Shown piece by piece: positions 34,057 through 42,246 of a stretch of 55,740 bases of DNA (its first letter is position 1; each line of letters begins with the position of its first letter). Both the position numbers and the translations under genes were made by a program. The notes under the pieces were generated by a model that was not told the origin of the DNA, did no database searches, and saw nothing but the letters and a program-made list of their open reading frames with translations. This DNA is from Bacillota bacterium (GTDB lineage Bacteria; Bacillota; Sulfobacillia; JAIMAT01), in contig JASBVM010000012.1 in NCBI GenBank assembly GCA_029961055.1, forward strand, positions 1-55,740. Direction: 5' to 3'.

Positions 34057-34232
34057 CCGCGCCCGCCCGGGCCTGGGACACGAGAGCACGGGGTGCGGAT
34101 CGCGGTCCGCTCCGGGAGGACGGCCGGTGGCGCCGCCCGAAAGGATCGCTCAGAGGCGACTCTCGGGCGAGGCGGCTGGCCTTGCGGAAGAGGTCGCCGG
34201 TGGCCGAGTTCCAGGAAGGGAGGAGGAAAGGG

Positions 34233-35567
34233 TTGCTGCACGCGCCGGAGTTCCCACCCGAGATGGAGTGGACCGGCTCCCGTCCCGTCCGCCTGGCCGA
34301 CCTGCGCGGGCGCCTGGTGCTCCTCCACTTCTGGACGTATGGCTGAATCAACTGCCAGAACGTGGTGCCGCAGTTGCGGCGCCTGGAAGAACGGTTCGGT
34401 CCCCGCGGCCTCGTCGTGCTGGGGATCCACTCCGGCAAGTTCACCGCCGAGCGGGAGACGGAGGCGATCCGGGCGGCGGCGCAGCGGCTGGGCATCCGCC
34501 ACCCCGTCGCCAACGACGCCGCCTTCTCGGTCTGGGAGAGCTACGCCGTCCGGGCCTGGCCGACCCTGATCTTCGTCGATCCGGCGGGCCGCCTGATCGG
34601 CCGGCACGAGGGCGAGTTCGCGCCCGCGGAGATGGAGCGGGTGGTGGCCGGACTCCTCGACCGCTTCCGGGCCGAGGGGCTGCTCCGCCCCGGCGGCGGC
34701 TCGGATCCCCCGGCCGGGGAGCCGCCGGCCGGCCCCCGCGGTCTCGCCTTTCCCGGCAAGGTGCGGATCGCCGGCGATCGCGTCTGGATCTCCGACTCCG
34801 GTCACGGCCGCGTCCTGGTCTTCGACCGGGCCGGCCGGCTGCTGGAGCGGATCGAGGGCATGCTCTCGCCGCAGGGCATGGCCTGGGTCGACGGGACGCT
34901 CTGGGTGGCCGACCCGCCGGCCGGCCGGATCTGGCGCGTCCCCGGGGGCCGGGGCCGGCCCGAAGCGTGGGCGGGCGACCTGCGTCAGCCCTGGGATCTC
35001 GCCTCCGACGGGCGGTACCTCTGGATCGCCATGGCCGGCGCGCACCAGCTCTGGCGGGCCGGCCCCGGCGAGGAGCCGCGGCCCTGGGCGGGGACGGGAT
35101 GGGAGGGACTCCGCGACGGGCAGCGGCAGATGGCTTCGTTCGCCCAGCCCAGCGCGCTCGCCTGCGCCTCGGGCCGGCTCTGGGTCGCCGACAGCGAGGC
35201 CAGCGCCGTCCGCGAGGTCGACCTGGCCGCGGGCAGCGTGAGGACGCTGGTGGGGACCGGTCTCTTCGACTTCGGCGACCGGGACGGCGCCGGCGAGGAA
35301 GTCCGCCTCCAGCACCCTCTCGACCTGGCCTGGGACCGGCGGAGGCGCCGCCTCTACATCGCGGACACTTACAACGGCAAGGTGAAGCGGCTCGACCCCG
35401 GCGGCCGCCGGGTGGTCACGCTGGCCGGCGGCTTCCACGAGCCGGGCGGCCTGGCCTGGGACCCCGGCTCGGACCGGATCTTCGTCTGCGACACCAACGA
35501 CCACGCCATCCGCCTCCTCCACCCCGAGGAGACGGAGATCCGACGGTGGTCGCCCGATCTTCCCTGA
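34233..35567 (+). CDS. Thioredoxin-like NHL-repeat protein, predicted selenoprotein (UGA at 34344)
   Basis: Read from TTG at 34233, six bases after GGGAGGAGG, the frame gives LHAPEFPPEMEWTG, then LVLLHFWTYG-U-INCQNVVPQ, where U is an in-frame TGA at codon 38. NHLRC2-type proteins have WTYCCINC here, so TGA replaces the first Cys of the redox CxxC (UxxC). The frame then continues for 406 codons without a stop: a thioredoxin fold to about residue 155 (AVRAWPTLIFVDPAGRLIGR) and NHL repeats (LAWDRRRRRLYIADTYNGKV and others) to the end. A SECIS-like hairpin follows the TGA. Total length is 444 residues counting selenocysteine. The role is probably a thiol-redox reaction with a propeller scaffold; the substrate is unknown. 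No sel genes are in the window. The alternative is a nonsense mutation or sequencing error. Confidence 0.85.
34347..34386 (+). promoter_or_regulatory. SECIS-like stem-loop downstream of the in-frame UGA
   Basis: Starting 17 bases after the TGA, GGTGCCGC (34364..34371) pairs with GCGGCGCC (34376..34383) in an eight-base stem with one G-U pair. It is capped by the four-base loop AGUU, with G in its second position. Below it CCA (34355..34357) pairs with TGG (34384..34386) across a six-base bulge. The loop begins 25 bases after UGA. Bacterial SECIS elements lie directly after UGA, commonly with about 16 to 37 bases to a loop that has G among its first bases. A competing stem CAACTGC/GCAGTTG (34349..34376) also exists. 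Confidence 0.65.
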
Positions 35568-39394: not shown

Positions 39395-40435
39395 TCAGCG
39401 ACCCACCTCACCCGCCACGTCCACGAAGACCCGGGTGGCGTCCACCGGCTGCTTCAGCAGGTGGTGCCGGAGCATCCAGTTCGCCAGCGTGGCCCACTTG
39501 GCCTCCGTCTGCTTCCCGTAAGGCTGGCCCGGATCGCGCAGCTCCGGCAGCAGCACCCTCAGCCCGGCCCGGGCGAGGCCGCGGTCGAGGCCGGAGGCAT
39601 GGCGCGCCAGGACCTCCACGGCCTCGTCGGGGTGGGCGGCCACCCAGGCCTCGCCCTGCTGCGCCGCCCGCCAGAAGGCCTCGATCAGGCTCCGGTCGCG
39701 CTGGAGCGTCGACTCGTTGGTGACCAGGACGAGCTCGTAGTAGTCCGGCACGCCCAGCTCCCGGACGGGGAAGACGGTGACGGGATAGCCGTTGCGCGGC
39801 AACTCCAGCGCCTCCACCGTGGTGTAGCCGCCCTCGATGGCGTCCACCCGGTGCGTGGTCAGCGCGGGGATCAGGTCGAAGCCGACGTTGATCGACCGGA
39901 TCTGGCTCGGCGGCACCCCCAGCCGTTCGGCCAGCGTCTCCATGATCGCCTGGTCGCTGGGCGTGCCCGCGGTCCCGATCCGCTTGCCGCGCAGGTCCTC
40001 CAGCGAACGGATGCCGCTGGAGCGGAGGGCGATGAGCGTGTTGAGCGGATGCTGGACCACCGCCGCCACGGAGACGACGGGAATCCCCCGCTCCCGCGCC
40101 AGGAGCACGTCCTTGGGGTACCCGATGCCCAGGGTGACCCGTCCCGAGCCCACCAGCTTGAGCGGATCGGTGGTCTGGGAGGGCACCTCCACCTTGACGT
40201 CCAGCCCCTCTTTCCGGAAGTAGCCCCGGTCGAGCGCGGCGTAGAGCCAGGCGTGGTCCACGTTGGGCTGCCAGTCGAGGAGCAGCGTGACCGTGCGCGG
40301 CGCCTGCCGGCTGGGGCCGCCCGCCTTCCCCTGCGGGCCGGCGGAGCCACCCGCGCCGCCGCAGGCGCCGGCCAGGAGGGCCAGGCCGGCGAGAAGCGCG
40401 ACCAGCCCCAACGGATGCCGGATCCGTCGCATCAT
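39395..40435 (-). CDS. thiY: Substrate-binding lipoprotein, NMT1/THI5 family (thiamine precursor uptake)
   Basis: The 346-residue protein has a lipoprotein signal (LVALLAGLALLAGACGG, lipidated Cys near 25) and the NMT1/THI5 fold: TVTLLLDWQPNVDHAWLYAA, ALDRGYFRKEGLDVKVEVPS, GIGYPKDVLLARERGIPVVS and RSSGIRSLEDLRGKRIGTAG. Characterised relatives with a thiXYZ context bind formylaminopyrimidine-type thiamine precursors. The TPP riboswitch ahead of the operon supports that substrate. Its ATG overlaps the permease stop by four bases. The gene name is given from context. Confidence 0.88.
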   Translation of the reverse strand: MMRRIRHPLGLVALLAGLALLAGACGGAGGSAGPQGKAGGPSRQAPRTVTLLLDWQPNVDHAWLYAALDRGYFRKEGLDVKVEVPSQTTDPLKLVGSGRVTLGIGYPKDVLLARERGIPVVSVAAVVQHPLNTLIALRSSGIRSLEDLRGKRIGTAGTPSDQAIMETLAERLGVPPSQIRSINVGFDLIPALTTHRVDAIEGGYTTVEALELPRNGYPVTVFPVRELGVPDYYELVLVTNESTLQRDRSLIEAFWRAAQQGEAWVAAHPDEAVEVLARHASGLDRGLARAGLRVLLPELRDPGQPYGKQTEAKWATLANWMLRHHLLKQPVDATRVFVDVAGEVGR

Positions 40436-41190
40436 GCTTCCTCACTCCCGAAACCGTTCTCGGAGATACGCATCCACCAGAGGAGGCGCCGTTCCGCCCA
40501 GCCGGTGAGGGCGAAGAGGGCGATGCCCAGGAGGGCCAGGAGGAAGACGGCGGCGAAGACCGCGGAAGCGTCGAGCTGTGAGGAGTAGCGCTGGATCAGG
40601 TAACCCAGCCCCGCCTGGGCGCCCAGCCACTCCCCCACCACCGCACCGCTCACGCTGAAGGCGACGGCCAGCTTCAGCCCGGAGAAGACGGCGGGGAGGG
40701 CCGAGGGCCACTCCAGCGCCCGGAAACGCTGCCAGCGCCGCGCCCCCCAGGCGGCGAAGAGCTCCTCCGCGTCGGCGTCCACCCTCCCCAGGCCGTCGTA
40801 GGTGCTGACCACCAGCGGGAAGAAGCTCCAGAGGACGGCCAGGAGCACCTTGGGTGCCAGCGTGTAGCCCAGCCAGAGGACCAGGATGGGCGCGACGGCC
40901 ACGGTGGGGAACATCTGCGAGGCGACCAGCCAGGGATAGGCGCCCTCCGCCAGGCGGGGGCTCATCCGCATCAGCACCGCCAGGCCGACGCCCACCATGG
41001 CCGAGAGCGTGATGGCCAGGGCGATCTCCTCCAGCGTCACGGTTGCGTTGGCCAGGAGCGTCGCCCTCTCCCGCCAGAGCGCCGCCGCCACGTCGCTGGG
41101 CGCGGGCAGGATGAAGCGGGGCGGCCGCATCCACTCGACCCCCGCCTGCCAGGCGACCAGCAGCAGGAGCGCCAGGAAGCCTCCCCTCAT
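40432..41190 (-). CDS. thiX: ABC transporter permease for thiamine precursor
   Basis: The 252-residue membrane protein belongs to the TauC/SsuC permease class. It has a short N-terminal helix, FILPAPSDVAAALWRER, and the ATPase-contact loop in AEELFAAWGARRWQRFRALE and WPSALPAVFSGLKLAVAFSV. About six membrane segments are visible. It forms the channel for the ThiY-bound solute. ATG at 41190 lies eight bases after the ATPase stop, and its own stop overlaps the binding-protein start. Confidence 0.9.
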   Translation of the reverse strand: MRGGFLALLLLVAWQAGVEWMRPPRFILPAPSDVAAALWRERATLLANATVTLEEIALAITLSAMVGVGLAVLMRMSPRLAEGAYPWLVASQMFPTVAVAPILVLWLGYTLAPKVLLAVLWSFFPLVVSTYDGLGRVDADAEELFAAWGARRWQRFRALEWPSALPAVFSGLKLAVAFSVSGAVVGEWLGAQAGLGYLIQRYSSQLDASAVFAAVFLLALLGIALFALTGWAERRLLWWMRISENGFGSEEA

Positions 41191-41197
41191 CCTCCCC

Positions 41198-42001
41198 TCA
41201 TCCTCCCCCCACCTCCGCCCGGGCGCTCTCCCCCAGCCCCAGCAGCTCCAGCACCCTGCGCTCGGCCAGCGTGGTGTCGCCCACCGGGACGCGCTGGAGC
41301 GCCCGGATGGGCGTGCCGGTCACCACCAGCACCTCGTCGGCGAGAAAGGCGGCCTCCCGGACGTCGTGCGTGACCAGCAGGAGCGTCGCCTCCAGCCTCT
41401 CGCGCAGGCCGGCCAGCCAGAGCTGGAGCTGGCGGCGGGTGAGCGCGTCCAGCGCCCCGAAGGGTTCGTCCAGGAGGAGGAGCCGTCCGCCCGCCAGCAC
41501 GGTGCGGAGGAAGGCGGCCCGCTGCCGCTCGCCCCCGGAGAGCTGGGCGGGATAGGCCTCCCCCTTCCCCTCCAGGCCGAAGACCGGCAGGAGCTCCCGC
41601 GCCCGCCGGCGCGCCGCCTCCAGCTCCGGACCGCTCGTGCCGCGGAGCTCCAGCGGCAGCACCGCGTTCTCCAGAAGCGTCCGCCAGGGCAGGAGCGAAT
41701 CGCGCTGGGGCATGTAGCTCGCCCGGAGCGGCTCCCCCGGGCGGGCGCCGGGCGGGCCTCCGCAGACCTCGATCCTTCCCGTACGGGGCCGCAGGATGCC
41801 TGCCGCCAGCTTCAGAACAGTGCTCTTGCCGGAGCCGCTGGGGCCGACCAGGGCGGTGAAGGAGCCCGCCCGGACCGTGAAGGAGAGATCCTGGAGGACG
41901 GCAACCTCCGCCCGGCGCCTTCGCGCCACGGGCAGGGGCCTGTAGACGGCGGTGACGCCGTCGAACCGAAGGGCGGTCTCTTCCGCCCGGCCACCGCTCA
42001 T
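41198..42001 (-). CDS. thiZ: ABC transporter ATP-binding protein for thiamine precursor
   Basis: The 267-residue ATPase has Walker A GPSGSGKST near residue 52, Q-loop SYMPQRDSLLPWRTLLENAV, signature LSGGERQRAAFLRT near 152, Walker B RLLLLDEPFGALDAL near 172 and the H-loop LLVTHDVREAAFLADEV. It powers the ThiX permease. ATG at 42001 follows GGGAGGCGAGCGAGG. It is the first gene after the riboswitch terminator, 40 bases downstream. Confidence 0.92.
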   Translation of the reverse strand: MSGGRAEETALRFDGVTAVYRPLPVARRRRAEVAVLQDLSFTVRAGSFTALVGPSGSGKSTVLKLAAGILRPRTGRIEVCGGPPGARPGEPLRASYMPQRDSLLPWRTLLENAVLPLELRGTSGPELEAARRRARELLPVFGLEGKGEAYPAQLSGGERQRAAFLRTVLAGGRLLLLDEPFGALDALTRRQLQLWLAGLRERLEATLLLVTHDVREAAFLADEVLVVTGTPIRALQRVPVGDTTLAERRVLELLGLGESARAEVGGG

Positions 42002-42063: not shown

Positions 42064-42101
42064 CGCAACGCGCCGGCGGCGGAGAACCACCCCTTGCGCG
42101 T

Positions 42102-42222
42102 GACCACTTTCCCTCCGCTGGTATGACCCAGATCAGGTTCGAGGGGTCGGCCTTCGCCGTCTCAGCCCGGGGCCGGCCCGCCGTCGCCGGCGGACCAGGG
42201 GCCCAGGGCGCCCCCAGTGGTC
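42102..42222 (-). ncRNA. TPP (THI element) riboswitch
   Basis: The minus strand shows the TPP aptamer in order: closing stem GACCACT (42222..42216) pairing with AGTGGTC (42108..42102), then GGGGGCGCC, the conserved CTGAGA, ACCCCTCGAACCTGATCTGG, and GTCATACCAGCGGAGGGA. P3 is extended by a GC-rich arm. It binds thiamine pyrophosphate and regulates the thiZ-thiX-thiY operon through the downstream terminator. Confidence 0.96.
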
Positions 42223-42246
42223 CTCTATGGTGTTCCTGTTGGCTCG

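Follow-up and report, generated by a model that had tools for sequence, protein, structure and literature searches.

A predicted selenocysteine form of the bacterial NHLRC2/SOQ1 family, with repeated exchange of Sec and Cys at one active-site position

In a 55,740-nucleotide stretch of DNA from a Bacillota bacterium (the window; the source assembly is G000 in our genome set), the gene at 34233-35567 on the forward strand is, in our judgement, a genuine selenoprotein gene encoding the Sec form of the bacterial NHLRC2/SOQ1 family. We put the probability of this reading at about 0.94, with Sec insertion itself predicted from sequence. The protein apparently belongs to an uncatalogued family of UxxC thioredoxin-fold selenoproteins. 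The argument rests on a single protein maintained on both sides of an in-frame TGA, an RNA hairpin that accompanies the TGA and is absent from Cys-coding relatives, and a genome that carries the complete Sec machinery.

A single reading frame across an in-frame TGA

The frame opens at a TTG, meets a TGA at codon 38 that is followed by ATC AAC TGC (Ile-Asn-Cys), and is closed by another TGA at 35565-35567. Its features, all on the forward strand, are these:

34219..34226, forward: ribosome-binding site GGAGGAGG, spacer 6 nt to TTG 34233; from the sequence, with a matching GGAGG ahead of the aligned starts in G001 and G002
34233..35567, forward: predicted selenoprotein gene, thioredoxin-like domain plus NHL beta-propeller of NHLRC2/SOQ1 type, 444 aa, TTG start, TGA terminator; from reading frame, domain matches, PDB search and predicted structure
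34239..34673, forward: thioredoxin-like (AhpC-TSA / Thioredoxin_8) domain, about residues 3-147; from profile match and AlphaFold model
34344..34346, forward: in-frame TGA, predicted Sec codon U38, at the first Cys position of CxxC (UINC); from frame and homologue alignment
34353..34355, forward: codon of Cys41, presumed resolving Cys of UxxC; invariant in the 27-protein alignment
34362..34364, forward: GTG, first conventional start past the TGA, from which the active site is dropped; from open reading frame and domain comparison
34364..34383, forward: putative bSECIS hairpin GGUGCCGC-AGUU-GCGGCGCC, 8 bp, 20 nt, loop AGUU at 34372-34375; from pairing and covariation, fitting the bSECIS model of PMC13188914 Fig. 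2
34743..35552, forward: NHL beta-propeller domain, about residues 171-440; from profile match, AlphaFold model and fold search

An in-frame GTG at 34200 offers an alternative start, but 34233 is preferred because of its ribosome-site spacing and because the aligned starts of two genomes of the same genus, G001 (GTG) and G002 (TTG), also follow ribosome sites. Coordinates, frame and motif are as given in a preliminary description of this DNA, as is the TTG start with a ribosome site ahead of it. That description had further warned that an automatic start past the TGA would lose the redox motif, and this is what we find; without recoding, the open frame runs from GTG 34362 for 401 aa and keeps the NHL part only. 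Whereas the read-through protein matches AhpC-TSA (E 1e-11), Thioredoxin_8 and NHL repeats, the AhpC-TSA and Thioredoxin_8 matches are gone from the shorter version.

The earlier assignment to an NHLRC2-type family is borne out both by sequence and by predicted fold. A PDB sequence search returned SOQ1 (E 1e-82) and human NHLRC2 (E 6e-75), collinear with the read-through protein over both domains and on both sides of the TGA and carrying Cys (CCINC) at the U position. The AlphaFold model (mean pLDDT 93.8, pTM 0.91) is matched best by the folds of the same two proteins, at TM 0.93 for SOQ1 and 0.90 for NHLRC2. Relatives read WTYCCINC where the present protein reads WTYGUINC, and the TGA does fall at the first Cys of CxxC, as had been proposed. 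Set against the family motif CC(I/V)NC it replaces the second Cys and is preceded by Gly rather than Cys, the motif occurring here in substituted form only (GUINC); among homologues the preceding position is either Gly or Cys. In an alignment of 27 proteins, with U written as C, the columns of U/C38 and C41 are invariant, and so is the cis-Pro motif W109-P110-T111.

Comparison of G000 with G001 gives a dN/dS of 0.23 for the codons ahead of the UGA and 0.25 over the 100 codons past it, and both sides are therefore maintained as one protein. The two genomes share 15 of the 16 codons that follow the UGA, which makes this stretch the best-conserved 16-codon window of a gene whose mean codon identity is 53%.

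The most durable alternative is that the TGA is a real stop separating a 37-residue peptide from an independent 401-aa NHL protein, possibly with regulated read-through. The open frame from GTG 34362 does exist, and in a homologue of the Sec form (L095) the conventional open reading frame likewise begins just past the TGA. A protein made from that frame, however, would be truncated, lacking both the active site and the first strand of the thioredoxin fold, and no ribosome site was seen by eye ahead of GTG 34362. The 37 codons ahead of the TGA are also under purifying selection and collinear with SOQ1 and NHLRC2, which are single chains, while Cys homologues read straight through the site. We regard a real stop as very unlikely.

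A hairpin specific to the TGA genes

A published bSECIS model specifies an upper stem of 4-16 bp, a loop of 3-9 nt with G in one of the first two positions, a distance of 16-37 nt after the UGA and a minimum free energy of -7.5 kcal/mol or lower (PMC13188914). The 8-bp AGUU hairpin begins 17 nt past the UGA, has its loop 25 nt past it and folds at -15.6 kcal/mol, in agreement with every one of these properties. Six or more of its eight pairs form in 42/46 TGA genes, as against 0/29 Cys genes (Fisher 8e-17), a p value that overstates independence because the genes are related, yet the tree scatters the exchanges between the two forms.

Within 25 TGA genes, 89% of the helix cells are paired, compared with 78±2% in shuffles (0/500 as high) and 40-71% in slid controls. 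Cells changed on both sides of the helix number 22, where shuffles predict 8±2.4, and the covariation score is 0.353 as opposed to 0.149±0.023 in shuffles, again with 0/500 as high. Eight Cys genes gave no hairpin signal, their pairing (42%) being similar to that in their slid controls.

The hairpin appears to leave its mark on the protein. The hexamer CAGTTG, which forms codons U+9 and U+10, is fixed in 43/46 TGA genes and found in 0/29 Cys genes, so that Gln stands at U+9 in 43 of 46 Sec genes and in no Cys gene; the latter mostly have Glu or Asp (also His) there, followed mostly by CTG or CTC for Leu. At their other Leu positions the TGA genes use TTG in only 8% of codons. The RNA structure appears to dictate the protein at these two positions, imposing Gln (CAG) and the TTG codon for Leu in nearly all Sec genes. 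There are exceptions to the hairpin pattern: the stem is interrupted in four TGA genes (L071, L074, L075 and L081), and one from Actinomycetota (L118, genome G901) has TGA at the same codon with the common AGUU hairpin absent, reflecting either another SECIS type or a recent change from Cys to Sec.

Selenocysteine machinery

The source assembly (2.28 Mb, 96% complete) was searched family by family, and everything that the preliminary description had said to look for, selA, selB, selD and tRNA-Sec, is present. The tRNA-Sec scores 76.9 bits (gathering score 47), and ARAGORN also calls it, giving the anticodon as tca. Each of the three proteins exceeds its curated cut-off, SelA with 580 bits, SelD with 334 bits and SelB with 316 bits. 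SelD has an in-frame TGA of its own, in the context VECAGUASK (L018:1528; G000:C51, about 79934), the site at which SelD enzymes of the Sec type carry Sec, and a strong hairpin, ACAGGTCC-GGC-GGACCTG, lies directly past it. Given this machinery and a Sec-containing SelD, Sec decoding of UGA is to be expected in this organism, alongside the use of UGA as an ordinary stop. More widely, selA is present in 42/44 genomes with the Sec form and 24/36 with the Cys form (p 9e-4); the two Sec-form assemblies in which it was not detected, G066 and G171, are possibly incomplete.

A thioredoxin match elsewhere in the genome (C51:89495) was considered as a further selenoprotein and rejected, as it has a CPPC motif and its TGA is its normal stop.

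Reading of the UGA as another amino acid (Trp, Gly or Cys), through a variant code or a suppressor tRNA, is less probable still than a real stop. Nothing specific speaks for it, although Cys is sometimes inserted at Sec codons under low selenium in other systems. Because a TGA also terminates this very gene, UGA is not globally reassigned, and both the presence of tRNA-Sec with all three Sec proteins and the restriction of the hairpin to TGA genes stand against it.

It had been argued beforehand that homology on both sides of the TGA is the defining sign of Sec. The homology is real, extending to SOQ1, NHLRC2 and dozens of bacterial homologues, but is not sufficient alone; the covarying SECIS hairpin and the Sec machinery were needed as well. 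Together with the exchange of Cys and TGA described below, they support the Sec interpretation originally offered.

Exchange of Sec and Cys, and distribution

Codon 38 is TGA in 46, TGC in 26 and TGT in three of 75 distinct homologues, and nothing else, these being drawn from relatives in the window's own class and from Chloroflexota, Actinomycetota, Planctomycetota and Myxococcota, whose kinship makes the counts non-independent. Ten further homologues likewise have only Cys or TGA, and the earlier expectation about this site, that relatives should show Cys or Sec, therefore agrees with every homologue examined.

The exchange is visible within the genus. G001 (public MAG Bu54; 75% identical) has TGA at codon 38, whereas G002 has TGC, lacks the SECIS hairpin and has kept selA; its gene is split across two contig ends (G002:C120, our locus L024, and G002:C107). 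Judged on sequence, this is a recent within-genus switch between Sec and Cys. Across the family, a maximum-likelihood tree calls for no fewer than about 7 switches between Sec and Cys (6-8 over the bootstraps), counted without direction. The TGC of G002 is also the one observation that might suggest a sequencing error or a recent nonsense mutation in a Cys gene, that is, a pseudogene; but TGA occupies the same codon in G001 and in dozens of genomes of other phyla, the hairpin is absent from Cys genes and the frames on both sides are intact, and since so many independent assemblies share the site, error is untenable and this explanation can be dismissed.

Sec forms occur in Chloroflexota, Bacillota-type relatives, Planctomycetota and Actinomycetota. 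In the Chloroflexota sample 65/301 genomes have a homologue, and 43 of these 65 show one in-frame TGA in the N-terminal match (its position at the site was checked in those retrieved as loci). The window's own phylum yielded a homologue in just two of 398 genomes, G000 and G050, and the gene is accordingly patchy there. Actinomycetota have it in 23/296 genomes, one with TGA, and Planctomycetota in 55/246, a small number of these with TGA, which in two was verified to lie at codon 38.

Gene neighbourhood gives no functional hint, the neighbours being common within the genus and absent around the gene in a Chloroflexota genome with the Sec form (G094). This is consistent with the reported lack of operon conservation in the NHLRC2 family (PMC6107167).

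Some distance away in the window, a TPP riboswitch (42092-42225, reverse strand) lies upstream of an NMT1/THI5-type ABC transporter operon (39395-42001, reverse strand), which is probably for a thiamine precursor.

Short thioredoxin-like proteins in genomes of the same class (L040, L044 and L047) have a TGA in WGTT*PAC at the CxxC position. They were set aside as members of the NHLRC2-like family, the alignment covering the Trx domain only, and may be a separate UxxC selenoprotein family.

Proposed mechanism and function

We propose that Sec is inserted by SelB at UGA38, since this is the established bacterial pathway. When the ribosome reaches UGA38, SelB carrying Sec-tRNA(Sec) would bind the hairpin 25 nt downstream and Sec would be inserted, giving a product in which the first thioredoxin helix (39-58 in the model) opens with a UxxC active site (UINC). 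Sec38 would be the attacking nucleophile and Cys41 the resolving residue; Pro110, the cis-Pro of the WPT motif, would lie opposite Sec38, and the substrate-selecting cleft would have the NHL propeller as its second wall. Such a propeller cleft is described for NHLRC2 (PMC6107167). The placement of UxxC at the start of helix 1, together with the WPT cis-Pro loop, points to a selenol/thiol oxidoreductase facing the propeller cleft, and the protein is probably a selenol/thiol-disulfide oxidoreductase. Classical disulfide reductase chemistry is not assured, because human NHLRC2 is reported to be inactive in an insulin reduction assay and the authors of that work lean away from thiol-disulfide exchange (PMC6107167). 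Repeated Sec/Cys exchange at position 38 nevertheless argues that this residue acts in redox chemistry or as a nucleophile, perhaps on a narrow substrate.

A family apparently absent from selenoprotein catalogues

A 2026 review catalogues 119 prokaryotic selenoprotein families and subfamilies (PMC13188914), none of which pairs an NHL propeller with a Trx fold, although a member could be concealed in its generic row 'Redoxin family protein, UxxC'. The term 'NHL' is absent from that review, from a 2022 review (PMC9312934) and from a 2008 ocean survey (PMC2398784), and a search of the open-access literature (Sec-annotated GenBank records lying outside this scope) found nothing relevant that links NHLRC2, SOQ1 or NHL with selenoproteins. 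No NCBIfam model scores above cut-off for the window protein, Sec-containing Trx models such as NF041054 falling far below, and none of the families matched by 27 members is an NHL-propeller selenoprotein model. On balance we favour the view that these genes constitute an uncatalogued family, Sec-NHLRC2, common in Chloroflexota, found in three or more further bacterial groups and subject to repeated Sec/Cys exchange at one active-site position. Such a selenoprotein family would be widespread, with genes that would be cut short under current annotation, and its Gln at U+9 would be a clear case of a SECIS element that constrains the protein.

NHLRC2 is essential in mammals, and its mutations cause FINCA disease; we know of no biochemical function established for it. 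If the Sec-NHLRC2 reading is true, the CCINC of human NHLRC2 and plant SOQ1 would be a redox-catalytic site with the second Cys attacking. That Sec has repeatedly been used at the first Cys position of CxxC speaks for a catalytic residue and identifies which one it is, and the bacterial proteins provide a model for finding the NHLRC2 reaction.

Comparison with known systems

Known UxxC selenoproteins of the Trx fold, including Prx-like thiol:disulfide oxidoreductase (PF00578), the redoxin family (PF08534), thiol-disulfide isomerase-like proteins (cd02966) and HUIPC-motif Trx-like proteins, likewise begin their first helix with UxxC and have a bSECIS directly past the UGA (PMC13188914 Table 1). 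They differ in that none is described with an NHL propeller, although the representative of the 'Redoxin family' row may itself have this architecture. The C-terminal domains of Mycobacterium tuberculosis DipZ (PDB 2hyx, 5cyy) share the Trx-like subtype (E 5e-22). They are not known to carry an NHL propeller. The DipZ active site is SCINC (PMC6107167), with Cys where the window protein has Sec. The closest likeness is to human NHLRC2 (PDB 6gc1) and the lumenal domains of Arabidopsis SOQ1 (PDB 7djj/7djk), which share both the two-domain architecture and the active site WTY-x-[C/U]INC; beyond these two domains, NHLRC2 has a C-terminal domain and SOQ1 a HAD domain together with a transmembrane helix (PMC6107167). 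At the active site itself, both have Cys (CCINC) where the window protein would carry Sec (GUINC).
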